From: a virus
Virus record (IMG/VR): IMGVR_UViG_3300047994_000599
Coordinates: 1 to 32,220 of that record
Direction: 5' to 3' (one strand)
DNA length: 32,220 nucleotides
Position 1 is the first letter of the stretch. Every line of letters starts with the position of its first letter. This document shows positions 3,563 through 22,331 of this stretch, one piece after another. The notes below the pieces were generated by a model that saw only the letters and a program-made list of their open reading frames with translations, was not told the DNA's origin and did not search any database. Both the position numbers and the translations under genes were made by a program.

Positions 3563-3576
3563 AACCACGGAGGGTT
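3563..3576 (+). promoter_or_regulatory. GGA-loop hairpin ribosome-binding site (dikinase-like gene)
   Basis: AACC-ACGGAG-GGTT can fold as a 4-bp stem with a six-base loop exposing GGA. The Shine-Dalgarno GGAGG is inside it. The core CACGGAGG matches the CANGGANG logic of CsrA/RsmE targets. The start codon follows at 3583. Confidence 0.6.
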
Positions 3577-3582
3577 CAAAAC

Positions 3583-5580
3583 ATGGCTATCAAACTTTAT
3601 CATTTTGGGGGCGGTAAGGCTGACGGGAGCGCATCTGATATCGCGCTGCTCGGGGGTAAAGGGGCGCATCTGGCAGAAATGTCGAAGCTAGGTATCCCGG
3701 TCCCGCCGGGCTTCACGGTTCCGACGAATTGGTGCGTGGAGTACCAGAAAGATAAGGAAGCCGTTCTGGCCACCGTGATGCAGGACGTGATCCCTGCCTA
3801 CTGGGATCTGGCCGATAAAATGGGTAAGCCTTTCCTGGTCTCTGTTCGCTCCGGCGCGGCAGTAAGCTGCCCAGGTATGATGGACACCATACTAAACGTG
3901 GGGCTGACGATCGATACGCTCCCGCTATTAGCCGAAAAAATCGGTGAAAGGTCGGCATTGGATTGCTACCGCCGATTAATTCAGATGCTGGGAGCCACGG
4001 GTTTTGGCGTCCCTTCGGAGAAGTTCGAAGAAATTCTGACGAAAGCCCGCTTTCGCGCCAAGGTTCAGGAAGACCGGGAGCTGACGGCGGAGCAGCTTAG
4101 CGAAGTGATCGTAGGCTACTCGGCGCTGTTCAAGCTTCACACGGGTAGGGACTTTCCGCAGGCAGTAAACGAGCAGCTTTCCGTGGCCGTGAACGCTGTG
4201 TTTGGTTCCTGGATGAACGACCGGGCTGTAGCCTATCGCGACATGCAGAAGATCGACCATAACATGGGTACGGCCGTCACGGTGCAGGCGATGGTCTTCG
4301 GAAATTATAACGATGACAGCGGCTCGGGCGTGCTGTTCTCCCGCAACCCGACAACCGGGGAGAACGTGATTTTCGGGGAATTTCTTCCTAACGCTCAGGG
4401 TGAGGATGTCGTGGCTGGGGTTCGTACCCCGTTACCTCTCTCCAAGCTGAATGAGATCTGGCCGGCGATCGGGGCGGAAATCGCGGTCACCGTCGCGGGC
4501 CTGGAAGTCCATTACAAGGATATGCTGGACATTGAGTTCACGGTTCAGGACAAGAAGCTGTACATCCTGCAGTGCCGAATCGGAAAGCGCTCGCCGCTGG
4601 CGAAGTTGGTTATCGCTACCCAGTTCGTCCAGGCTGGTCTGCGGCCCGCAGAGACGCTTCGGACGGTCATCACGAAGGCCGACCTGAAGAGCATCCTGAC
4701 GCCCAGCGTGAATCCTACCTTCAAGCAGGAGCCCGACTTCATGGGTATCGCCTCGAATAACGGGGTGGTGAAGGGGTGGGCGGTAATAACCGCCGATGAG
4801 GCGGTGGCAGCAGCCAAGGCCGGGGAGACTGTGATCCTAGTCCGGGACGAAACCGACCCCGACGATATCCAGGGTATGAACGCGGCGATCGGCATCCTTA
4901 CCAAGACAGGCGGAGCAACCTCCCATGCGGCCGTGGTGGCTCGGGCCTTGAATAAGCCTTGCGTGGTGGGTTGCACGGCCCTTCCGCACGACCTGGAAAG
5001 CCTGAAGGGGCGTCTGGTGACCATAGACGGCACGACGGGCCGCGTATGGTTGGACGTGGATGTCCCGGTCACTGCAGGCGGATCGGTCCCCGAGCTGGCT
5101 CTGGTGGCTGAGCAGTTCCTGAAAGTGGACCAGATGACGCTGGCAGGACCGTACTCGAAAGGGTACGCTGTTTATGACGATAAGATGAACATGGATAATG
5201 TGAGCCTGTGCGATATCCGTAGCTATGTTCCAAGCGGCGACACCGATCTGGAGGTTTTCTTCCCGCAGCCCGACTTGATAGCTAAGCCGGGCACACCTAC
5301 CCTTAGTTCCTGGCCGGACATTAGTTACATCGTTCCTCCTAGCTGGGAGGGCGTGGGTGCCAGTCAGGGCTGGAAGCTTGCCTCCACAGAGAAGGCAGGC
5401 AGCCTTGAAGAGATGCTTGACAAGAAGACCGTGAGTGCAACTCCTGATTTGATTAACTTCCTCGGAGAAGAAACTTTCGGAAAGCTGTATAGTGCTCTGA
5501 AAAAGGCCGGATTTGCTGACACCTTACGAATCGTTTACCCTCCTGAGTATATTCTGTTCACGGAACTCATGGAGGGTTGA
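3583..5580 (+). CDS. PPDK-like protein lacking the PEP/pyruvate domain
   Basis: The first ~505 residues match pyruvate phosphate dikinase, which moves the beta-phosphate of ATP onto a swinging histidine and then onto pyruvate. Visible ATP-grasp landmarks are Gly-Gly-Lys26-Gly-Ala-His-Leu-Ala-Glu-Met, Val-Ser-Val-Arg89-Ser-Gly, Asn-Ala-Gln-Gly-Glu-Asp-Val-Val-Ala-Gly, Asp-Ile-Glu318-Phe and Gln330-Cys-Arg. The phosphohistidine domain has Gly-Gly-Ala-Thr446-Ser-His448-Ala-Ala-Val-Val-Ala-Arg, so both the catalytic His and the regulatory-type Thr are kept. Family members run to about 870-900 aa. Here the C-terminal TIM barrel that binds PEP and pyruvate is absent, replaced from about residue 510 by roughly 155 residues I do not recognise, which may be an alternative acceptor domain. 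It probably cannot make PEP alone. The gene opens a unit with the CsrA-like gene and has a GGA-hairpin ribosome-binding site. Confidence 0.88.
   Translation: MAIKLYHFGGGKADGSASDIALLGGKGAHLAEMSKLGIPVPPGFTVPTNWCVEYQKDKEAVLATVMQDVIPAYWDLADKMGKPFLVSVRSGAAVSCPGMMDTILNVGLTIDTLPLLAEKIGERSALDCYRRLIQMLGATGFGVPSEKFEEILTKARFRAKVQEDRELTAEQLSEVIVGYSALFKLHTGRDFPQAVNEQLSVAVNAVFGSWMNDRAVAYRDMQKIDHNMGTAVTVQAMVFGNYNDDSGSGVLFSRNPTTGENVIFGEFLPNAQGEDVVAGVRTPLPLSKLNEIWPAIGAEIAVTVAGLEVHYKDMLDIEFTVQDKKLYILQCRIGKRSPLAKLVIATQFVQAGLRPAETLRTVITKADLKSILTPSVNPTFKQEPDFMGIASNNGVVKGWAVITADEAVAAAKAGETVILVRDETDPDDIQGMNAAIGILTKTGGATSHAAVVARALNKPCVVGCTALPHDLESLKGRLVTIDGTTGRVWLDVDVPVTAGGSVPELALVAEQFLKVDQMTLAGPYSKGYAVYDDKMNMDNVSLCDIRSYVPSGDTDLEVFFPQPDLIAKPGTPTLSSWPDISYIVPPSWEGVGASQGWKLASTEKAGSLEEMLDKKTVSATPDLINFLGEETFGKLYSALKKAGFADTLRIVYPPEYILFTELMEG
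5564..5578 (+). promoter_or_regulatory. GGA-loop hairpin ribosome-binding site (CsrA-like gene)
   Basis: AACTC-ATGGA-GGGTT can form a 5-bp stem (one U-G pair) with GGA in the loop. It lies over the Shine-Dalgarno of the CsrA-like gene (start TTG 5584) and within the last codons of the dikinase-like gene. CATGGAGG fits the CANGGANG consensus, which suggests self-regulation. Confidence 0.6.
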
Positions 5581-5583
5581 ACA

Positions 5584-5874
5584 TTGGCGCTAGTATTGTC
5601 ACTTCGGGTGGACGAAGGCTTTTATGTCGGGGACGAGCAGTTTGCCGTCCGCTCGATTGAGTCCACCAGCAAGTTCGTGCTAGAGCGGAAGAAGGACGGT
5701 GTTCTCTTCACAGTGGTTGAAGGTCGCTCGGTCGAGATCCTTTCGGGCGTGTCCGTAACACAGGGTATAAGAGCCCAGGCAGACTTGGCCAGAGTGGCAA
5801 TAGAAGCCCCAAGGTCGGTTCGAATTCTGCGCTGGGACCACTACCTTGCAGAGCAGGAAAAGAAGAAACCGTAA
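5584..5874 (+). CDS. CsrA/RsmA-like RNA-binding protein with an insertion
   Basis: CsrA-family dimers bind GGA-containing hairpin loops over ribosome-binding sites and alter translation. The N-terminus, Leu-Val-Leu-Ser-Leu-Arg-Val-Asp-Glu-Gly then Val-Gly-Asp-Glu, aligns with the first strands of CsrA. Residues about 69-88 (Ala-Arg-Val-Ala-Ile-Glu-Ala-Pro-Arg-Ser-Val-Arg-Ile-Leu-Arg) align with the last strand, which carries the RNA-binding Arg near 'Ala-Pro-x-x-Val-x-Val-x-Arg'. Between them are about 40 extra residues (roughly 27-67), so the 96-aa protein is longer than the usual ~60-70. The start is TTG 5584, seven bases after GGAGGG, and the stop overlaps the next ATG by one base. Several neighbours have hairpin ribosome-binding sites of the kind CsrA recognises. 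The assignment is from motif pattern and not a search. Confidence 0.68.
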   Translation: MALVLSLRVDEGFYVGDEQFAVRSIESTSKFVLERKKDGVLFTVVEGRSVEILSGVSVTQGIRAQADLARVAIEAPRSVRILRWDHYLAEQEKKKP

Positions 5875-6167
5875 TGGCTTTTGAATGGGAAACCATCGAA
5901 ATATCGCCGAAGGCGCTGGAAGATGCGGCTTCGGTGGGGTTGCAAGGTGACTTGCAGACAAAGGTACGGAACTTGCTTCGTTTCTCCGTCCCCTTCTCCC
6001 ACCCGCAAGGCAACCGGCGTTTCAAAGAGGTGATGTTGTTGGTGAAGGATAACGTCCTGCAATCAATTGCACCGATCGCCGAAGATCCGAAGAAAATAGC
6101 TTTGGACGAGAAGAACTGGAGGAAGTACCAAGCCAAGCACCCAGGGGCGCAACGTATCGTTAAGTAG
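5874..6167 (+). CDS. Hypothetical 97-aa protein
   Basis: I do not recognise this small basic protein. Its start ATG overlaps the stop of the CsrA-like gene (TAATG), so the two are translationally coupled. It has a central amphipathic helix, a strand-like hydrophobic stretch near residues 52-64 and a Lys/Trp-rich C-terminus. A perfect copy of the recurrent palindrome (6058-6071) lies inside the coding region. Coupling suggests it acts together with the CsrA-like protein, but nothing in the sequence shows how. Confidence 0.65.
   Translation: MAFEWETIEISPKALEDAASVGLQGDLQTKVRNLLRFSVPFSHPQGNRRFKEVMLLVKDNVLQSIAPIAEDPKKIALDEKNWRKYQAKHPGAQRIVK
6058..6071. repeat. Palindrome copy, perfect (TGCAATCAATTGCA)
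   Basis: This perfect copy of the recurrent 14-bp palindrome (6-bp arms, CA centre) is inside the 5874-6167 gene, about 120 bases before the first phosphatase gene. Confidence 0.6.
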
Positions 6168-6176
6168 ATTTCTTAC

Positions 6177-6192
6177 TAACCATGGAGGGTTA
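6177..6192 (+). promoter_or_regulatory. GGA-loop hairpin ribosome-binding site (first phosphatase)
   Basis: TAACC-ATGGAG-GGTTA folds as a 5-bp stem with loop AUGGAG. It contains the Shine-Dalgarno and matches CANGGANG. The start codon is ATG 6194 or 6197. Confidence 0.65.
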
Positions 6193-6193
6193 A

Positions 6194-6799
6194 ATGATGA
6201 CTGAAAACTTTAAGACCGGCTTCCGCAAACCGAATCCGACTGGCTACCTTGTGCTGGACTTCCCGCACGGGCCGATGACTGTTGTGGGTGGTCCTTTCGA
6301 CGCCTATATCGCTGGCATTGGCGTGTGCTTGGAGGAAGAGTCGGCTTTGGCTGGCGAGGCGCAAATTCTGTTCCCGATCCATGACTTCACTGCCCCGAAG
6401 GTTGAAGATCTGGAGCGACTTATTGCCGATATCATCGTTGCCCACGCGGCGGAGCCAAACGAGCCGGTGTTCGTTGGATGCCGTGGCGGCTTTGGTCGCA
6501 CGGGCACCGTTGTCGCGGCTCTGGTAAAGTACGCCCAGGAGATGACGGCCGAAGAGGGTGATGCTCTTCTCGACCCGATCAAATACACCCGCCAGAATTT
6601 CAACCCGAATGCGGTGGAAACTCAGCCGCAGGCCAATGTCGTTCGAGCGTTGAACGTCAATACCGTGCTGGAGCTGGTCGAGGGTATGCGTGGTGACGAG
6701 AAGGCCCCAGAGGTCGTTGAGACGGTTGTTGATCCGAATGCTGGATTGAATTTTTTCCAGCGTGCGGCTCGCAATTTCCTTGATCTTGTCTGGGGGTAA
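6194..6799 (+). CDS. Dual-specificity/tyrosine phosphatase-like protein 1
   Basis: Cys-based phosphatases of this fold remove phosphate from Tyr, Ser/Thr, or small phospho-molecules. The signature loop is Gly-Cys96-Arg-Gly-Gly-Phe-Gly-Arg102-Thr-Gly (Cys-X5-Arg), preceded by Val-Phe-Val. A general-acid candidate is Asp64 in Phe-Pro-Ile-His-Asp-Phe-Thr-Ala-Pro. The position before Cys is Gly where classical enzymes have His, which may change cysteine acidity or substrate range. The 201-aa protein is normal in length and has a C-terminal tail of about 60 residues ending in an amphipathic Phe/Trp-rich helix that might touch a membrane or a partner. It is one of two such enzymes in the module. 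The substrate is unknown; host phosphoproteins or the phospho-His dikinase-like protein are possible. Confidence 0.82.
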   Translation: MMTENFKTGFRKPNPTGYLVLDFPHGPMTVVGGPFDAYIAGIGVCLEEESALAGEAQILFPIHDFTAPKVEDLERLIADIIVAHAAEPNEPVFVGCRGGFGRTGTVVAALVKYAQEMTAEEGDALLDPIKYTRQNFNPNAVETQPQANVVRALNVNTVLELVEGMRGDEKAPEVVETVVDPNAGLNFFQRAARNFLDLVWG

Positions 6800-6832
6800 G
6801 TTAGTCTAGTCTTTCGTTACCAAATTACCGCA

Positions 6833-6846
6833 AACCATGGAGGGTT
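6833..6846 (+). promoter_or_regulatory. GGA-loop hairpin ribosome-binding site (341-aa gene)
   Basis: AACC-ATGGAG-GGTT forms a 4-bp stem with loop AUGGAG, immediately upstream of ATG 6849. The core is identical to that of the first phosphatase gene. Confidence 0.65.
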
Positions 6847-6848
6847 GA

Positions 6849-7874
6849 ATGTCGGTTATGTATCCATCGGATTGTCTCGCCTATCATATGGCGAGGCCTT
6901 TGTTCCGGCAGATGGACGTAAGTTCGGTTGCTTGCAGCGTGTATGCCCAGCAGATGAAGCAGTTCGACGTGCAGGGGTTGAATACAGAACCCCTGCCGGA
7001 GATTGATGCGCTTCGTTTCTATCAACTGAACCACGCGCTGGCGCTCATTCAGCAGAAGTTCCATCCTTTGGAGCCTTTGCCAAAAGAGTACCAGGATTTG
7101 GTGACGGAGTTTTTCGAGCAGACCAGCATCGCTGTGCGGAGGGCGATCTTCTACTTGATTATCATTTGCACTCGCGAGACCAGGCACCTGCACGCGAAGT
7201 CTGCCTGGACGCCGAAGCTGAGCAAGAAATACGGCGCGAAGGTTGCGGAGTATGTCTGCAGCCTTCCCGACGATCCAAAGACGGCGATGGGTATGTTCAA
7301 GAAAAACCCACCGGATGCCGCGATCGGGCCTTATGTGGAGGCTATCTACGAAGTGTTCAACTCCGGTAGCTGGTCTACTAATTACGGGGGAAAGAAATGG
7401 GCAGCCGTGACGGATTGCCTACGTTCCTTCGTGACGGGCAACTACTCGATGGTGATGTTGCTCGATACGATGTGGACGCTGAGCCATAATACAGGCCCGA
7501 TTTTCAATAAAGGGGATTTGTACAGCCACCATTTGGGTGGAAACTATCTCGTAAAAATCCTGGACGTTCAGCGCGCCGGTATGATCCCGACATTCATCGC
7601 CGACAAGGGTGAAGACCATACGCTGAATACCCTTCTGGCAAAGACACCTGATCTCTTGGATACGAACAAGAGAATTCATGAACTTTTCGATCTGCCGCGT
7701 ATCATGGATTGGGCGAAGGTTAATGAGCTGGGCTCTGTTCAGCAATACGACGCCGAAGGCTACGCGAATGGCCACAAGCCTTACAAGCCGATACCGCCGA
7801 AGCCGAAAGTCCCGATGTTCACCGTATACAACGGGTTCGATCTTCCTTACGCCAAACTGCAGAGGGCCGCATAA
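6849..7874 (+). CDS. Hypothetical 341-aa protein in the phosphatase cluster
   Basis: The protein is not recognised. It is soluble-looking, rich in helix, Tyr, His and Lys, with no signal peptide. Stretches that look conserved or functional are Thr-Arg-Glu-Thr-Arg-His-Leu-His (near residue 110), Gly-Gly-Lys-Lys-Trp-Ala-Ala-Val (near 180) and Leu-Ser-His-Asn-Thr-Gly-Pro-Ile-Phe-Asn-Lys-Gly (near 215-226), which could be active-site loops. The last 50 residues are Pro/Lys-rich. It lies between the two phosphatases, with only a one-base gap to the second, so the three are probably co-expressed. ATG 6849 is used because it follows a strong GGAGGG site. Confidence 0.75.
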   Translation: MSVMYPSDCLAYHMARPLFRQMDVSSVACSVYAQQMKQFDVQGLNTEPLPEIDALRFYQLNHALALIQQKFHPLEPLPKEYQDLVTEFFEQTSIAVRRAIFYLIIICTRETRHLHAKSAWTPKLSKKYGAKVAEYVCSLPDDPKTAMGMFKKNPPDAAIGPYVEAIYEVFNSGSWSTNYGGKKWAAVTDCLRSFVTGNYSMVMLLDTMWTLSHNTGPIFNKGDLYSHHLGGNYLVKILDVQRAGMIPTFIADKGEDHTLNTLLAKTPDLLDTNKRIHELFDLPRIMDWAKVNELGSVQQYDAEGYANGHKPYKPIPPKPKVPMFTVYNGFDLPYAKLQRAA

Positions 7875-7875
7875 T

Positions 7876-8622
7876 ATGGCATACCCCCACGATTTCGAAG
7901 ATCATAGCTGGAAGGATGACCCGGCCGCAGCGTTCGAGAAGATTGCGAAAGGGTTCTCCAACACGACACCCACCGCGACAGGGTTTAGCGCGAGCAGTCA
8001 GCAGTCAAAGGGAGGCAGCTATAAGACTGACTACACCAGTTCTGATCGCTGCTACCATAAACACCCGCCTTTGCCTCTGGGTGAGGGCTTGGTGATCTAT
8101 GGAGGCTCCTGCTGGAGCCCCGTTGTGAAAGACGCGGATATTTATATCGGTCTCGACGCAGGAATGAGCGAAACCGAGAAGCGTTTCCCCTGGACGCCAG
8201 GGCATGAGATCCGGTTCGTAATCACTGACACCCAGGCCCCGAAGAACCCCGCCGATTTCAAGAAACTTGTCGGCTGGACGGCGGAGCAGATACGTGGAGG
8301 CGCAAAGGTGCATGTGGGCTGCATCGGCGGTCATGGTCGCACGGGCTTGCTCCTGTCGGCTCTGGTATCGGTGATGCTGCCCGGCGAGGCTGACGCCATC
8401 AGCTACGTTCGGAAGAATTACTGCCAGAAGGCTGTGGAGTCCTCCGTGCAGGTAGATTTCCTGGTGAAGCATTTCGGTGTGAAGCCTGCTTCTGGGTCGA
8501 AAAATTATTCCAGCCTGAGCAATACCGGAAGCAACGTGACGACGATACCTCCCTCAAAATTCAAGGTACAGCACATTGCGAGTGATACGTGCATGTGGGG
8601 GAAGTCGGGGGCCGCGAAATAA
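7876..8622 (+). CDS. Phosphatase-like protein 2 (Cys-X5-Arg)
   Basis: The signature loop Val-Gly-Cys149-Ile-Gly-Gly-His-Gly-Arg155-Thr-Gly-Leu marks a second PTP/DSP-fold phosphatase. Asp118 in Ile-Thr-Asp-Thr-Gln-Ala-Pro sits where the general acid is expected. ATG 7876 is chosen because it directly follows the stop of the preceding gene; longer in-frame extensions run into that gene. The 248-aa protein has a Ser/Thr-rich N-terminal 60 residues and a Ser/Asn-rich C-terminal tail ending Cys-Met-Trp-Gly-Lys-Ser-Gly-Ala-Ala-Lys. It is not a recent copy of the first phosphatase, since little aligns outside the active-site loop. Confidence 0.78.
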   Translation: MAYPHDFEDHSWKDDPAAAFEKIAKGFSNTTPTATGFSASSQQSKGGSYKTDYTSSDRCYHKHPPLPLGEGLVIYGGSCWSPVVKDADIYIGLDAGMSETEKRFPWTPGHEIRFVITDTQAPKNPADFKKLVGWTAEQIRGGAKVHVGCIGGHGRTGLLLSALVSVMLPGEADAISYVRKNYCQKAVESSVQVDFLVKHFGVKPASGSKNYSSLSNTGSNVTTIPPSKFKVQHIASDTCMWGKSGAAK

Positions 8623-8662
8623 AACTTGCCCTAGATAGCTGCAAAGTTAAGATAGGAGCTGC

Positions 8663-8678
8663 AAACCATGGAGGGTTT
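8663..8678 (+). promoter_or_regulatory. GGA-loop hairpin ribosome-binding site (8683 gene)
   Basis: AAACC-ATGGAG-GGTTT folds as a 5-bp stem with loop AUGGAG. The ATG within it (8668) is in frame but is part of the ribosome-binding site; ATG 8683 is properly spaced and preferred. Confidence 0.65.
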
Positions 8679-8682
8679 AACG

Positions 8683-9564
8683 ATGGGCGTAAAAATCACG
8701 ACAGATTTTTTGGATCTGTTGAAACAGAAGCAGATGAACGTGGCGCATTTCGAGCCGTATCTGCAGCAGGGCGTGAAAATCCACGTTCACATGTACATGC
8801 TTCTCGCGGCAGATTCTTCTGGGGAAGTGATCGCAAAGGTCAGCAGCCAGAAAGCGGTGCAGAACAACCTGCCGACGATGGCAGCGGAGTTGCTGACCAA
8901 GCTGAAGCAGTGGGCTTCTAACCCATCTTTCGCGACGCAGAAAGAGGCGGAGAAGAAGCTCGCATATGCTGCGCTCTACGGCATAAGTGCCAAGCAATTG
9001 AAAAAATCAATGTACAAGCCCATGCCGGACGCGGTGACGGTGACGACGATGGGGGCAGGGTCTCCGGTCGATCAGTTTATGGCTGCAGAAGCTGCAGAAG
9101 GCGCGGCACCTGCTATGAGCCTGCTTACCGGAGCTGTTGCGGCCATCCCCGCGCCGATGCATCCAAGCGTTTCTCCGGTAAAAACCGACTATCCGGTACT
9201 CGACCCGAAGCAACCTGTAGCGACCGTGCATCTGCGTGATGCGTGCGGCCTGTACCGCAGGGTGAAGGGTACGGACGAGCATAGCGTTTACTTTCTTCTC
9301 GCAGATTTCGGCGATCTAAAGATGGCCGGCCGCTGGAAAGGAAACGCCTTCTCCGTTCGGTTCGAATCGCCAAACATGAAAAAATACAGCCCGTACCTTA
9401 AGGATATGGGGTTGAAGTCCACGCCAAGCCACGCCTCGGTGCATGTCACCGTGGCTAACGCCGTGGAGGCCCGCAAGCTGGTAGGGGCCATGATCGGTGC
9501 TATCGGGGCCGCTCCGCTCAGCCCGCTCCCGAATGTGGATATGATCATAGGCGTGGGTGCGTAA
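8683..9564 (+). CDS. Hypothetical 293-aa two-part protein
   Basis: I do not recognise this protein. The N-terminal ~110 residues look helical (Lys/Gln/Ala-rich), followed by an Ala/Met/Pro-rich flexible stretch (about 125-165). The C-terminal ~125 residues look like a compact alpha/beta domain (Val-Ala-Thr-Val-His-Leu-Arg-Asp-Ala-Cys, then Tyr-Phe-Leu-Leu-Ala-Asp-Phe). A weak promoter-like pair, TTGCCC (8626-8631) and TAAGAT (8648-8653), lies in the gap upstream, so this may start a sub-operon with the next genes through the polymerase. ATG 8683 is chosen over 8668, which sits in the ribosome-binding site. Confidence 0.7.
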   Translation: MGVKITTDFLDLLKQKQMNVAHFEPYLQQGVKIHVHMYMLLAADSSGEVIAKVSSQKAVQNNLPTMAAELLTKLKQWASNPSFATQKEAEKKLAYAALYGISAKQLKKSMYKPMPDAVTVTTMGAGSPVDQFMAAEAAEGAAPAMSLLTGAVAAIPAPMHPSVSPVKTDYPVLDPKQPVATVHLRDACGLYRRVKGTDEHSVYFLLADFGDLKMAGRWKGNAFSVRFESPNMKKYSPYLKDMGLKSTPSHASVHVTVANAVEARKLVGAMIGAIGAAPLSPLPNVDMIIGVGA

Positions 9565-10200: not shown

Positions 10201-13200
10201 ATGACCAGCATAGTATTTTGGACTTCTGCGTCGGTGCAGGCGATCAAGAAGATCGTCGGCCCTGCACTAAAGCGCTGCCCGGAAACACCCAGCCATAGAT
10301 TCGTCAGTGTCGGTAAGGAACTCTATGTCCCCGCCCCGGACGAAATCTGTCTTGCTATGGGTGATGACGAGATCACTCTGATGGCCGAGGCCGGTATCGT
10401 GCAGAAGAACCGCAAGGCTGAGAGTTTACGAGGCAAGATATATCCGGCCGGTGAGGGGAGAGGGTCGTACATGATCAGCTACTCGCCGGATCTGGTATCG
10501 TTCGATCCAGGGCGAGAGACGGATATCGTCTGGGCGGTGCAATTAACTGCAAGATTTGCGATCACGGGTAGCACCGCCGCCGTGCTGGGTGAGTACCGCT
10601 GGGTGGAGCATTTCGAAGACGAGATAGCCATCATCGAGGCGAAATACGCGCAGACGGGTAAGCCTGTCCCTGTATCCGTGGATACTGAAACCCTTAGATT
10701 GTCCCCGTTCGATAGCGGGAGCCGGGTGGTCGCGATCGGCTTTACCTCGACCGAGGGCAGGGCCGACTGTGCGTACATCTCCGACCTGCAGACCGAAGAG
10801 CAGGCGAAAAAATTCCTGGGATCGGTCAGATGGTTGCTTACCAGCGATAAGGTGAAGCTTCGCCTGGCGCACGGGAAATTCGACTTGGCCTGGGTGGCGG
10901 AGAAGTGGGGCATTGAATGCACCAACTTCAGCATGGACACGCTTTTGGTTGGGTCGATGCTGGACGAGAATCGTTCTAACAGTCTGAAAACACACGTAAA
11001 ACACTATGATGTTTTGCTGGGTGGTTATGATGACGAAATGACCCAGAAGGATATGGAGAACATGGACCGCGTACCGAAGGATAAGCTCCTGCGGTATCTA
11101 GGCGGGGACGTAGACGGCACGCTTCGGATTTCCCGCCATATGATGGAAGAGCTGAAGCAGGTGCCAGAGACGATGAGGCTATACCTCACCATCGTTCACC
11201 CGGCCGCGAAGGTGTTCTCGAAGATCGAGCGAAACGGGATTTTGGTCGATGTCGAGGCCTACAGGGAGCTGAAAAACGACCTTGAGGTCGCCATCACCAA
11301 ACACACCAAAGAAGGGCTAGACCTGCTCCCAGCAAGGCTACAGGCCAAATTTGCAGACAATTTAAGCCTTTCCCGGCCAGCATTGCTGAAGGAGTATTTC
11401 TTCACGCCAGCGGGTTTGAACCTAAAGCCTCGCGTGACGACGGCCAAGAGCGGGGAGCCCTCCACGGCGAAGAGTCATCTGGAGATGTTTCACACGGTCC
11501 CAGAGGCGAAAGCCATGTGCTCCGTGCTGACGGACATCAATCAGGCGAAGAAAGCGCTCAGCACCTACGTCATCGGGTTTCTGGAATGCCTGAAGCCCGA
11601 CGGGAAGTTCCACCCGAGCTACTTCATGCACCAGGGCGACAATGAGTGGGGTGATGATGAAGGCGGTACGGTAACCGGCCGGCTATCGGCGAAAGACCCA
11701 GCCGTCCAGTGCATGGTTGGTGAAACGTTGGTTCTAACAACGGCAGGCTGGAAGCGCTTGGAAAACATGGTTAGTGCTTACGAAAATGGCCAGAGGTTCA
11801 CCGTGCTCACGCATACGGGGGAATGGATGCCTGTAATTGGAAGTTACCGAAATGGCGTTAAGCCTACCCTAACATTCAAACTTCGGTCGGGCAGGGAGAT
11901 TACCTGCACGCCTAACCATCCTATTTTAACCAGCCACGGTTTTATAAAGGCGGAGCATATCCGGCTTGGCGACCGGGCATTCCAACTTGGGGGGGAAATT
12001 GCCTACAATAGTCAGCTTGACGGGGAAGAAATTTGGAAGGCTTCTCGTGCTGGAGTCCGTAATAACGCCAGGCGGCAGAAGGCAGCGCTGCCAGTGCGAC
12101 TGCGGGAAGATCAGGTTAGTAGTTACGGGCAATCTGACTTCGGGGAACACCACGAGCTGTGGTTGCCAATGGGGGGAGAAGAAGGTCACGCACGGGCACA
12201 AACGGAACGGGCAAGTGTCCCGCACCTACCATGCGTGGTATTCGATGAAAACACGGTGCCGAAACCCGAAATCAAAGGCGTTTTCGGACTACGGAGGCCG
12301 CGGAATTACCTACGATCCTGCCTGGGAGACTTTCGAGGGCTTCCTAAAATATATGGGAGAGTGCGCGCCGGAGTTCGAATTGGAACGCCAGGATGTGAAT
12401 CAAGGTTACAACAAGAACAATTGCTGCTGGATTCATCGAAGCAAGCAAAATTCGAACAAGAGGACCAGCCACCGGCTGACGTTTCAAGATCAAACGATGT
12501 GCGTGGCGGAGTGGGGCCATGTAACTGGCTTAGGGGAGACAGTGAAGCGGAGAATTCAAAAAGGGTGGTCTGTGGAAGCAGCGCTGACGACGCCAAAGCG
12601 GCCTATGAAGCCGGCTTCACAATGGAAGAAATCGTTAACATCACCTTCACAGGGCTCCGCGAAACCTTCGACCTGACGATCGAGGGAAGCCACTCCTTTG
12701 TGGCTAACGGTGTTGTTGTCCACAACACTGTTCCCAAGCGCAACAAATGGGCGAAGAAAATCCGCAAATGCTTGATCGCGCCGGAAGGCTACATGATCCT
12801 GGAGGCCGATAGCGCGCAGGGGGAGCTGAAGCTTACCGCCTGCGTCGCCGAAGAACCCACGATGTTGGATCTGTACATGAACGGAGGGGATCTGCACACG
12901 AAGACAGGCGCAGGGTTGGCGGGTCTCGAAATGGACGAGATGATGGCCTTGAAGGAGAGCGATAAGGATCAGTTCGCGTTGTTCCGTTACAAGGCCAAGG
13001 CCGCGAATTTCGGGTTGATCTACGGTATGGGGGCCGAGGGCTTCCAGCGCTATGCGTGGAATAGCTATGGCCTGGCTCTTACCCTGGAAGAAGCAGAGAA
13101 GATTCGGAGTGCGTTTTTCAACACGTACACGGCCCTGCCGGAATGGCATAAAACATACAAGAACCTCGCCTATAAGCATGGGTTTGTCGTCTCGCCTCTG

Positions 13201-13557
13201 GGCCGTACCCGCCATCTGCCCCAGGTGTGGAGTTCCGATCGCCAGACCGCTTCGAAGGCTGGCCGTCAAGGCATCAATTCACCCATCCAGTCCACGCTCT
13301 CGGATATGCTGTGCTGGGCCTTCGCGGAGATTGATGCCGCATATGGCGATATCATCAAACCAATCGCCTCGATCCACGACGCCGGTTACTGGCTGGTGCC
13401 TGAAGATCGCGTGATGGAGTGCGCTGTGCGCGTGACCGACATCATGGGCAATCTGCCATTCGAGAAAATGGGTTGGACCCCGCAACTGAAGTTCAACGCC
13501 GATGCGACTGCGGGCCGCAACCTGGGCCAGATGGAAGAGCTGAAGCTGGCTGCCTAA
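10201..13557 (+). CDS. Family A DNA polymerase containing an intein
   Basis: This is the replicative polymerase with 3'-5' exonuclease. Exonuclease motifs are Ser-Val-Asp-Thr-Glu-Thr (Exo I), His-Gly-Lys-Phe-Asp-Leu (Exo II) and Tyr-Leu-Gly-Gly-Asp-Val-Asp (Exo III). Polymerase motifs are Thr-Gly-Arg-Leu-Ser before the intein, motif A Asp-Ser-Ala-Gln-Gly-Glu-Leu-Lys-Leu, motif B Lys-Ala-Ala-Asn-Phe-Gly-Leu-Ile-Tyr-Gly and motif C Ile-His-Asp-Ala. The precursor is 1118 aa; removing the 339-aa intein leaves 779 aa, normal for phage enzymes. The N-terminal ~130 residues before Exo I are not recognised. Motif C has Ala where Glu is usual (His-Asp-Glu), which may slow catalysis or alter fidelity. 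Motif A has Gly where Ile is common. Splicing is needed because the insertion separates the TGRLS motif from the rest of the polymerase domain. Confidence 0.95.
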   Translation: MTSIVFWTSASVQAIKKIVGPALKRCPETPSHRFVSVGKELYVPAPDEICLAMGDDEITLMAEAGIVQKNRKAESLRGKIYPAGEGRGSYMISYSPDLVSFDPGRETDIVWAVQLTARFAITGSTAAVLGEYRWVEHFEDEIAIIEAKYAQTGKPVPVSVDTETLRLSPFDSGSRVVAIGFTSTEGRADCAYISDLQTEEQAKKFLGSVRWLLTSDKVKLRLAHGKFDLAWVAEKWGIECTNFSMDTLLVGSMLDENRSNSLKTHVKHYDVLLGGYDDEMTQKDMENMDRVPKDKLLRYLGGDVDGTLRISRHMMEELKQVPETMRLYLTIVHPAAKVFSKIERNGILVDVEAYRELKNDLEVAITKHTKEGLDLLPARLQAKFADNLSLSRPALLKEYFFTPAGLNLKPRVTTAKSGEPSTAKSHLEMFHTVPEAKAMCSVLTDINQAKKALSTYVIGFLECLKPDGKFHPSYFMHQGDNEWGDDEGGTVTGRLSAKDPAVQCMVGETLVLTTAGWKRLENMVSAYENGQRFTVLTHTGEWMPVIGSYRNGVKPTLTFKLRSGREITCTPNHPILTSHGFIKAEHIRLGDRAFQLGGEIAYNSQLDGEEIWKASRAGVRNNARRQKAALPVRLREDQVSSYGQSDFGEHHELWLPMGGEEGHARAQTERASVPHLPCVVFDENTVPKPEIKGVFGLRRPRNYLRSCLGDFRGLPKIYGRVRAGVRIGTPGCESRLQQEQLLLDSSKQAKFEQEDQPPADVSRSNDVRGGVGPCNWLRGDSEAENSKRVVCGSSADDAKAAYEAGFTMEEIVNITFTGLRETFDLTIEGSHSFVANGVVVHNTVPKRNKWAKKIRKCLIAPEGYMILEADSAQGELKLTACVAEEPTMLDLYMNGGDLHTKTGAGLAGLEMDEMMALKESDKDQFALFRYKAKAANFGLIYGMGAEGFQRYAWNSYGLALTLEEAEKIRSAFFNTYTALPEWHKTYKNLAYKHGFVVSPLGRTRHLPQVWSSDRQTASKAGRQGINSPIQSTLSDMLCWAFAEIDAAYGDIIKPIASIHDAGYWLVPEDRVMECAVRVTDIMGNLPFEKMGWTPQLKFNADATAGRNLGQMEELKLAA
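10538..10551. repeat. Palindrome copy, one mismatch (TGCAATTAACTGCA)
   Basis: This copy of the recurrent palindrome has one mismatch in the right arm and lies inside the polymerase gene. It may be a chance match. Confidence 0.3.
11710..12726 (+). other. Intein in DNA polymerase at the TGRLS-proximal site
   Basis: The 339-aa intein starts at Cys504 (block A: Cys-Met-Val-Gly-Glu-Thr-Leu-Val-Leu). Block B has Thr-Pro-Asn-His-Pro-Ile, block F reads Thr-Phe-Asp-Leu-Thr-Ile-Glu-Gly-Ser-His-Ser-Phe-Val, and it ends Val-Val-His-Asn before a Thr at +1 (12727-12729). All splicing residues are present. The main-frame linker between blocks B and F (about 200 residues) resembles no known domain and is rich in Arg, Gly and Gln. 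The same DNA read in the +1 frame encodes a complete HNH endonuclease, so the linker is probably the shadow of that gene. Confidence 0.93.
11966..12676 (+). CDS. HNH homing endonuclease nested out of frame in the polymerase intein
   Basis: In the +1 frame relative to the polymerase this ORF encodes a phage-type HNH endonuclease. Residues 18-30 read Leu-Thr-Gly-Lys-Lys-Phe-Gly-Arg-Leu-Leu-Val-Leu-Glu, the usual N-terminal motif. A Cys cluster Arg-Cys-Gln-Cys-Asp-Cys-Gly (41-47) with Ser-Cys-Gly-Cys (64-67) suggests a zinc site. The HNH core includes Tyr-Gly-Gly-Arg-Gly-Ile (109-114), the Glu-Arg at 140-141 where Asp-Arg is usual, Gly-Tyr-Asn-Lys-Asn-Asn-Cys (147-153) and Gln-Asn-Ser-Asn (161-164). 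Residues 177-210 resemble a C-terminal DNA-binding repeat ending Gly-Trp-Ser-Val-Glu-Ala-Ala-Leu-Thr-Thr-Pro. It fills the space between intein blocks B and F. No ATG opens it; TTG 11966 is listed, while TTG 11987, 11999 or 12017 are possible. It would nick or cut intein-less polymerase alleles to spread the intein. Confidence 0.75.
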   Translation: MATGHSNLGGKLPTIVSLTGKKFGRLLVLESVITPGGRRQRCQCDCGKIRLVVTGNLTSGNTTSCGCQWGEKKVTHGHKRNGQVSRTYHAWYSMKTRCRNPKSKAFSDYGGRGITYDPAWETFEGFLKYMGECAPEFELERQDVNQGYNKNNCCWIHRSKQNSNKRTSHRLTFQDQTMCVAEWGHVTGLGETVKRRIQKGWSVEAALTTPKRPMKPASQWKKSLTSPSQGSAKPST

Positions 13558-17197: not shown

Positions 17198-17668
17198 ATG
17201 TGGTTTGGTTTTCAGAAAGCTGACGCAAAGCAATCTGCCAAAGGCAAAGGCCCGAAGGCCGCGATGGGGACCAACGATCCAGGTCCGACCCCCGAACCCC
17301 CGACGCCGGCCCAGCAGCAAATGGCTGCCGATGAGCAGATGAAGGCAGGTCTTGCTGCGGCGGAGAACGCCCAGACGATCGCCCAGCATCAGCAGGCCGC
17401 GAAATGGCACCATACGCTTGCGGCCTATACGCAATATGTGAATCCAAAAATGGCACAGGCCCATGAAGATGCGGCGATGATGCACCATCAGCATGTGCTC
17501 GCGAAGCAGAAGCTGAATAAGGAGGCTGGCGTTCACCAGCCCGACGCCGAGAAGGCGTACCGGGATCAGCTACAAGCTACCAGCGGTGAATCCCGCCTTC
17601 GCAGTATGGCTGTGAATAAACAGTTCCCGTACCAGAATGGTATGTGGGGTAAAGCGTCGGCGGCTTAA
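17198..17668 (+). CDS. MWFG-tagged protein 2 (156 aa)
   Basis: Begins Met-Trp-Phe-Gly-Phe-Gln-Lys. Its first 21 coding bases equal those of the 23699 gene. Residues 9-45 are Lys/Gly/Pro-rich and disordered, and 46-125 form an Ala/Gln/His/Met-rich helical stretch. The C-terminus is Met-Trp-Gly-Lys-Ala-Ser-Ala-Ala, echoing the end of the second phosphatase. No catalytic motif is seen. The four-base gap to the membrane protein and three-base gap to the next tagged gene show co-translation. The composition resembles internal or scaffold-associated virion proteins. Confidence 0.72.
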   Translation: MWFGFQKADAKQSAKGKGPKAAMGTNDPGPTPEPPTPAQQQMAADEQMKAGLAAAENAQTIAQHQQAAKWHHTLAAYTQYVNPKMAQAHEDAAMMHHQHVLAKQKLNKEAGVHQPDAEKAYRDQLQATSGESRLRSMAVNKQFPYQNGMWGKASAA

Positions 17669-22065: not shown

Positions 22066-22079
22066 AACAATGGAGTGTT
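22066..22079 (+). promoter_or_regulatory. GGA-loop hairpin ribosome-binding site with compensatory stem
   Basis: AACA-ATGGAG-TGTT keeps the AUGGAG loop seen in the accessory module, but the closing pair is A-U instead of C-G. This paired change supports the folded RNA form. Start codon ATG 22083 follows. Confidence 0.6.
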
Positions 22080-22082
22080 AAC

Positions 22083-22331
22083 ATGCCTGTTGCCATTTTG
22101 ACCAAAGCCCGTGACTACCAGAACAAATCGATGTTCCCGAAAGCCAAGGATGGAAAAATCCTGAAGGGTGAGCGTGTTCAGGTTACGGAGGATGAAGCTT
22201 CGCACCTGTTCGATACCGGACTGTTCGAGATCATCGAAGACGGCGCACCGCCGAAACGCGGTAATGTCAAGGTGACCCCCAAGGGCGTCATCAAGGGTGC
22301 CGTGGAAACGGAAAAATCGGTAGGAATCTAA
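22083..22331 (+). CDS. Hypothetical 82-aa head-module protein
   Basis: A small unrecognised, basic, strand-rich protein (Leu-Lys-Gly-Glu-Arg-Val-Gln-Val-Thr-Glu-Asp-Glu-Ala, then Phe-Glu-Ile-Ile-Glu-Asp). The position between capsid and connector genes suggests a minor head or connector accessory. Its ribosome-binding site is a GGA-loop hairpin like those of the accessory module, unusual for this region. Confidence 0.7.
   Translation: MPVAILTKARDYQNKSMFPKAKDGKILKGERVQVTEDEASHLFDTGLFEIIEDGAPPKRGNVKVTPKGVIKGAVETEKSVGI

Follow-up and report, generated by a model that had tools for sequence, protein, structure and literature searches.

The published high-affinity ligand of the bacterial RNA-binding proteins CsrA and RsmE is an ANGGAX hexaloop placed directly on a stem (PMC4005645), and R44, the arginine with which the C-terminal helix begins, is essential for RNA binding (PMC3791407). 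RsmN/RsmF of Pseudomonas aeruginosa, a relative of CsrA that is interrupted by an insertion, binds ANGGAN loops via R62 (PMC3791407). Genes of the CsrA family are also found on mobile elements, namely those of F116 and DC1, RsmM, and RsmQ on pQBR103 (PMC7366521, PMC8450108, PMC9928087), and the phage homologs reported earlier have been interpreted as acting on the host (PMC7366521, PMC8450108). The genome paper of Vibrio phage J26 names only a CsrA gene, ORF99, without operators or targets (PMC12038007). In the literature that we searched, which excludes most subscription journals, no phage-side target set has been described for phage CsrA homologs, and there is no report of covarying hairpins at phage ribosome-binding sites (RBSs) for such a protein. 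Here we analyze a stretch of viral DNA of 32,220 nucleotides (positions 1 to 32,220 of the IMG/VR record IMGVR_UViG_3300047994_000599; hereinafter, the window) that encodes a CsrA-like protein (gene start at 5584) and carries hairpins with GGA-containing loops at a set of RBSs. The sequence comes from a tailed phage and covers 32 kb of its genome, including terL, polA, the portal gene and head genes.

Like CsrA, RsmA and RsmE, the phage protein possesses both conserved halves, including the AP..I.R segment that contains the R44 equivalent, and the hairpins are ANGGAX hexaloops on a stem over the Shine-Dalgarno sequence (PMC4005645); unlike these proteins, it contains about 40 extra β-strand residues, shows weak sequence similarity and is encoded by a phage, and the putative targets identified belong to the phage itself. 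In RsmN/RsmF, the closest structure of the CsrA family, a helical insert of 16 residues separates strands 2 and 3 and the C-terminal helix is absent, whereas the model of the phage protein has a longer, all-β insert and keeps a helix at residues 84-94, so that it does not belong to the RsmN/RsmF type. The F116 and DC1 proteins closely resemble bacterial CsrA, and the RBSs of these phages show no hairpin enrichment. ORF99 of J26 belongs to the same protein family as the window protein and occupies the same position next to genes for a pyruvate phosphate dikinase (PPDK) and a phosphatase, but J26 and its subclade no longer have the R44 equivalent, and their cassette genes yielded no hairpins. 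The translational repressor RegA of phage T4, likewise a small phage protein, acts at the RBS of numerous phage mRNAs; however, it is unrelated and recognizes AU-rich unstructured operators (PMC3014915).

Hairpins at phage ribosome-binding sites

The first-pass annotation, made from the window sequence, listed six RBSs folding into short stems that close a GGA-containing loop. The positions and stems of all six were verified by script, and the hairpin observation in the window is confirmed. The candidate operator hairpins are:

3563..3576, plus strand, AACC-ACGGAG-GGTT, before ppdK (3583)
5564..5578, plus strand, weak pentaloop hairpin AACTC-ATGGA-GGGTT with one G-U pair, before the csrA-like gene; overlaps the end of ppdK
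6177..6192, plus strand, TAACC-ATGGAG-GGTTA, before PTP1 (6194)
6833..6846, plus strand, AACC-ATGGAG-GGTT, before the gene at 6849
8663..8678, plus strand, AAACC-ATGGAG-GGTTT, before the gene at 8683
22066..22079, plus strand, AACA-ATGGAG-TGTT, before the gene at 22083, for which no orthologs were available

The five hairpins other than that of the csrA-like gene have exact stems of 4-5 bp and an A-N-G-G-A-G hexaloop over the Shine-Dalgarno sequence; the element CANGGANG is present in five of the six sites as originally noted, the exception being 22083. On the entire plus strand of the window, there are only six A.GGA. hexaloops with a stem of at least 4 bp, and five of these are located directly before a gene start. 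When gene starts were chosen automatically, 4 of the 18 GGA-bearing RBSs in the window had such a stem compared to 0.2 expected from GGAs outside RBSs; the hairpin of the 8683 gene was missed in this count because the automatic choice took 8668 as the start. This alternative ATG is in frame and within the loop, and the hairpin spans the initiation region either way. At several sites, the ATGGAG loop also gives a mini-open reading frame (ATG GAG GGT TGA/TAA), a candidate role that we rejected: loops lacking ATG, AAGGAG and ACGGAG, are together commoner.

The syntenic cassette including ppdK, the csrA-like gene, tyrosine phosphatase genes and the gene of the phrog_20946 family is present in Rhodobacter phage RcZahn, Rhizobium phages RHph_Y1_11 and RHph_TM16, Stenotrophomonas phages DLP5, Summit and DLP3, and many Vibrio phages. 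A profile search of IMG/VR with the phrog_20946 alignment yielded 80 related loci (queries with either the CsrA-like protein or PPDK on its own returned no matches), of which 75 encode the csrA-like protein as judged by hidden Markov model comparison, the other five being mostly short or contig-edge fragments, although locus L059 does contain a csrA-like frame; in nearly all relatives, the csrA-like gene adjoins the putative target genes. At the RBSs of these loci, hexaloops with stems of at least 3 bp were found 130 times against 16.9 expected, and those with stems of at least 4 bp 65 times against 5.0, the expectation for the 895 GGA-bearing RBSs being set by 36,888 GGAs outside RBSs. AGGAG pentaloops are enriched as well (54 against 14.9 expected). 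Heptaloops, the other hexaloop register, tetraloops and one pentaloop register showed little or no excess in the 80 loci and, therefore, the register of the hairpin is exact. The loops are mostly AAGGAG, ATGGAG or ACGGAG: the base two positions before GGA (-2) is A in 96% of the hairpin RBSs compared to 38% of the others, the next base is free, and the final base is G.

Given that nearly all these loops end in GGAG, the motif at which the endoribonuclease RegB of T4 cuts early mRNAs, they could be conceived as targets of a RegB-type enzyme. RNA structure is reported to protect from RegB, though, and selection experiments (systematic evolution of ligands by exponential enrichment) found other bases and structure to be unneeded (PMC3014915); neither the stem nor the A at -2 is required for RegB; furthermore, the RegB profile PF10715 matched none of 8 relatives, in a search that had no positive control. 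We consider this explanation highly implausible.

There is strong covariation of the stems among the relatives. Across 325 A.GGAG RBSs that were not selected for the presence of a stem, pairing exceeded the permutation expectation on the diagonal (z 15.1, 9.3, 11.6 and 5.7), with little signal off the diagonal; the covariance search among relatives proposed in the first-pass annotation thus gave a strong result, far firmer than the window alone. For the phrog_20946 genes, we compared 33 orthologous RBSs chosen by the loop only: 78.8% of the cells pair compared to 48.6% in shuffled data, double changes number 43 compared to 20.6, and covariation is 0.673 compared to 0.212, with both-sided changes at all four pairs and a signal that collapses when the alignment is slid by one base. 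Compensatory stem changes, initially proposed for the AACA/TGTT stem in the window, are accordingly borne out among the relatives, and stems vary even inside one genome. In RcZahn, the arms AACC, TAGG, CATC, GAGC, GACC, TCGCC, GGC and others surround one and the same AAGGAG loop, and this combination of free arms with a constant loop is characteristic of RNA hairpins that are read via the loop. In the four phages that were listed gene by gene, there are about 7 to 16 hairpin RBSs per genome.

The same pattern bears on the possibility that the dyads are recognized at the level of double-stranded DNA, as operators or promoter elements. Inverted repeats near gene starts would fit such a role, and other palindromes are located just upstream of the RBS motif in DLP5, but a DNA operator would retain its arms, whereas here the arms vary around a constant center, even inside RcZahn, and the dyads lie on the Shine-Dalgarno sequence in the coding direction. 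This explanation, too, appears very improbable.

Genes with and without hairpins

The cassette forms a block between terL and polA and includes, in order, the PPDK-like gene at 3583, the csrA-like gene at 5584, an open reading frame for 97 amino acids, the genes at 6194 and 6849, a second phosphatase gene and the gene at 8683. The genes of interest are:

3583..5580, plus strand, PPDK-like gene (ppdK), proposed target; N-terminal and mobile domains of pyruvate phosphate dikinase (Pfam PPDK_N 8e-46, PEP-utilizers 4.8e-24)
5584..5874, plus strand, CsrA-like putative RNA-binding protein, proposed regulator; 96 amino acids, TTG start
6194..6799, plus strand, PTP1, dual-specificity/tyrosine phosphatase-like, proposed target (Pfam Tc-R-P 3.4e-10, PTP-SAK 4.2e-8)
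6849..7874, plus strand, helical protein of phrog_20946 (E 1.3e-62), proposed target
7678..8622 (longest open reading frame; the real start is probably near 7878), plus strand, PTP2, second phosphatase-like protein (Pfam Tc-R-P 0.0035, phrog_17568 4.9e-26)
8683..9564 (start 8683 or 8668), plus strand, conserved hypothetical gene with orthologs in relatives, proposed target (phrog_25950, E 2e-4)
22083..22331, plus strand, hypothetical gene for 82 amino acids with no confident family match, proposed target

Hairpins are present at the RBS of ppdK in 31 of 59 unique relatives, at that of PTP1 in 27 of 50, and at that of the phrog_20946 gene in 35 of 61; the corresponding fractions are 16/45 for PTP2, upstream of which no canonical hairpin was found in the window, and 19/60 for the 8683 family. 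No hairpins were detected in the relatives at portal (0/24), terL (0/12) or the 97-amino acid family (0/23), and the frequency at polA (5/50) is close to the background. The contrast is kept when a 50% identity threshold is used to thin the phages to 43 groups, with hairpins at 60 of 172 target RBSs and 6 of 87 others. Elsewhere in the full genomes, a phrog_10401 AAA ATPase gene has a hairpin in both Y1_11 and KarBoss, as does the gene of a HerA-like ATPase in RcZahn, and the DLP5 gene preceded by AACCAATGGAGTGTT is the counterpart of a Summit gene annotated as AAA-ATPase. The specific gene set of the phage regulon proposed at first is supported, but the putative regulon is neither small nor confined to a single phage and recurs in a large phage clade. 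Autoregulation of the csrA-like gene, also proposed, is rejected as a family trait: a hairpin at its own RBS is rare (3/38), and the site in the window is non-canonical. A scan of the phage genomes and IMG/VR loci for a CsrB-like sponge (at least three ANGGAN hairpins within 250 bases) yielded nothing convincing, the one cluster found lying within a repeat (locus L038).

This gene specificity also helps in weighing the possibility that the stems act without a protein, by generic tuning of translation or as temperature-sensitive elements around the Shine-Dalgarno sequence. Every one of them does overlap that sequence, and the stems are short and weak. However, the structural genes and unrelated phages lack the hairpins, the loop length and register are exact, and the nearly invariant A at -2 is not required for pairing with rRNA; because a pure tuning hairpin needs no fixed loop, we find this alternative distinctly improbable.

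The phrog_20946 protein of the window is strongly conserved across these phages and has a confident helical AlphaFold2 (AF2) model (predicted local distance difference test score, pLDDT, 91.6) for which comparison with PDB structures gave no clear match. The PTP2 counterparts in DLP5 and DLP3 are annotated as thymidylate synthase although the family fits phosphatases. Outside the cassette genes, both terL and polA of the window contain intein splicing domains (605-2980 and 10201-13557; Pfam Intein_splicing 2e-11 and 3.2e-11, respectively), and four different genes, at 17198, 17672, 23938 and 24416, share the N-terminal start (M/V)WFG(F/Y), perhaps a common signal.

The CsrA-like protein and the candidate readers of the hairpins

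The first-pass annotation described the product of the gene at 5584 as CsrA-like, and this is supported. With the Pfam CsrA profile (PF02599; cut-off 27), the window protein scores 25.4 bits and a relative from phage VH2 28.2 bits. When a profile of 48 relatives was compared with PDB sequences, 11 of the 12 matches were CsrA, RsmE and RsmN/F, aligned over the N-terminal strand region and the C-terminal AP..I.R segment. An hhalign comparison of the family with a small, hand-assembled CsrA alignment gave 94.5% (E 7.5e-8). Structure prediction, suggested at the outset as a check, produced a confident AF2 model of the 96-amino acid protein (pLDDT 93.3) with nine strands and the C-terminal helix, and its best match within the CsrA family is RsmN (rank 5 overall; Z 5.0, root-mean-square deviation 1.9 Å over 51 residues, 37% identity). 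A Foldseek search of PDB with this model found no match below E 0.001, RsmF appearing at E 0.25. The R44 equivalent is R83 in the window protein and R or K in nearly all relatives. The extra 35-40 residues are placed by different aligners between strands 1 and 2 or between strands 3 and 4, because the GxxxxVGDxxxxV segment and the later VEI..GVSVT segment both resemble strands 2-3. We read the protein as a putative divergent relative of CsrA with an all-β insertion of about 40 residues, and claim no more.

Some members of the family have a cysteine-rich, zinc-ribbon-like C-terminal tail (loci L040, 6983-7363; L049, 6847-7284; L056, 6778-7173). The gene that follows the csrA-like gene in DLP5 (L003, 7191-7589), where the two frames overlap, and in DLP3 is annotated in the deposited records as 'transcriptional repressor'.

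In a small control set of three plus two genomes, no hexaloop excess was found in Vibrio phage KVP40, Rhizobium phage 16-3 and Rhodobacter phage RcapNL, or at the own RBSs of F116 and DC1, which encode canonical CsrA. Therefore, the hairpins track the divergent family rather than phages in general or every csrA-bearing phage.

The loops would suit any CsrA, and hence the hairpins might be read by the host CsrA/RsmA instead of the phage protein, which would tie the phage auxiliary genes to host physiology. Many gammaproteobacterial hosts have CsrA, as do two of the four bacterial metagenome-assembled genomes that hold relatives. However, Rhizobium and Rhodobacter phages are among those most enriched in the stem-loops and with the longest stems, and their hosts belong to a class mostly devoid of csrA: CsrA is encoded in 42 of 192 sampled alphaproteobacterial genomes, and Sinorhizobium meliloti is reported to lack a chromosomal csrA (PMC7366521). 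In addition, unrelated phages of the same host genera are free of such hairpins, and the csrA-like gene of almost every relative is a neighbor of the target genes. Host CsrA, a response to which had been considered from the beginning, could read the sites where it is present, as an extra, but because close relatives infect alphaproteobacteria, it is unlikely to be their main reader.

Both the protein and the hairpins vary within the family. Among phages that keep R or K at the R44 equivalent, 146 of 300 cassette genes have hairpins, compared to 3 of 28 in phages without it. The Vibrio clade of SIO-2, J26 and VHS1 lost this arginine, and no hairpins were found at its cassette genes. In locus L059 (6890-7808), the csrA-like frame ends ...NAPAYRIQLIKA and the key arginine is gone; the cassette RBSs examined there have no GGA hairpins, and the phrog_20946 gene has CCC-AAGAG-GGG instead. 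Vibrio phages VH2, KarBoss and LV6 have a tighter form, GTC-AGGA-GAC or GGC-AGGA-GCC with an AGGA tetraloop, at 7 to 16 genes, with weaker covariation because one stem dominates per genome. In DLP5, CAATGGAGTG occurs at 14 places on the plus strand with one mismatch allowed, and the closing stem is merely CA/TG. Separately, the GGAGT ribosome-binding motif is closely preceded by palindromes such as TACGATA..CGTATCGG in DLP5 (L003; before 944, 8091 and 9996), DLP3 and Summit; these palindromes are possibly promoters or operators.

A proposed phage-owned regulon and its implications

Taken together, the hairpins and their covariation, the gene specificity, the co-occurrence with the csrA-like gene and the conservation of the key arginine make us fairly confident that these phages possess a translational regulon of the Csr type that is governed by their own divergent CsrA-like protein.

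Several observations run counter to this conclusion. The window protein falls just below the Pfam CsrA cut-off (25.4 bits, E 1.4e-5) and far below that of the canonical csrA equivalog, NCBIfam TIGR00202 (24.4 bits; cut-off 70.1); R6 of CsrA is not conserved at the aligned position; and in the structure comparison RsmN ranks only fifth, behind unrelated β-proteins including CcsBA, matches that we treat as probable shared β-arrangements. Folding energies of the single hairpins are no better than those of shuffled sequence (z -0.9 to +1.1), so that the window by itself is suggestive only; the case for the hairpins is one of position, register and covariation among relatives, not of energy. For any one gene, there are many relatives without a hairpin, and DLP5 encodes the csrA-like protein yet has only the 2-bp CA/TG stems around its motif. 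Locus L048 has Ser at the R44 equivalent and nevertheless hairpins at 3/3 target genes, and the joint loss of R44 and hairpins comprises few events, essentially one Vibrio clade and L059.

We propose the following tentative scheme. The csrA-like gene downstream of ppdK would produce a divergent RNA-binding protein of the CsrA family, and selected non-structural mRNAs, those for the PPDK-like protein, the phosphatases, the phrog_20946 protein, the 8683 family and, elsewhere, AAA ATPases, would bear its ANGGAG hexaloop hairpin at the RBS. Bound to the GGA in the loop, the protein would hide the Shine-Dalgarno sequence and exclude the 30S subunit, so that the target genes would be lowered together as the regulator accumulates. 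We infer direct binding, repression rather than activation, and timing; by analogy with the established mechanism of CsrA, repression is most likely, and stabilization or activation of targets by CsrA also exists. In many relatives, no more than a few tens of bases separate the end of ppdK from the start of the csrA-like gene, so that repression at ppdK could also lower the regulator itself via translational coupling.

It seems probable to us that these phages share a self-contained Csr system in which their own divergent CsrA and covarying ANGGAG operators control phage genes of auxiliary metabolism and signaling independently of host CsrA. Phage CsrA homologs have so far been reported as genes, with the guess that they reprogram the host; here, the regulator comes together with its likely operators. 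Such operators can be recognized by eye and tested with short RNAs, and the phages that carry this system include culturable ones that infect Rhodobacter, Rhizobium, Stenotrophomonas and Vibrio. The natural pairs of protein and putative operator, namely those with the ANGGAG hexaloop, those with the AGGA tetraloop and the clade that lost R44, offer material for the study of the evolution of CsrA specificity. For the phages themselves, the regulon would place a PPDK and two phosphatases under common control.

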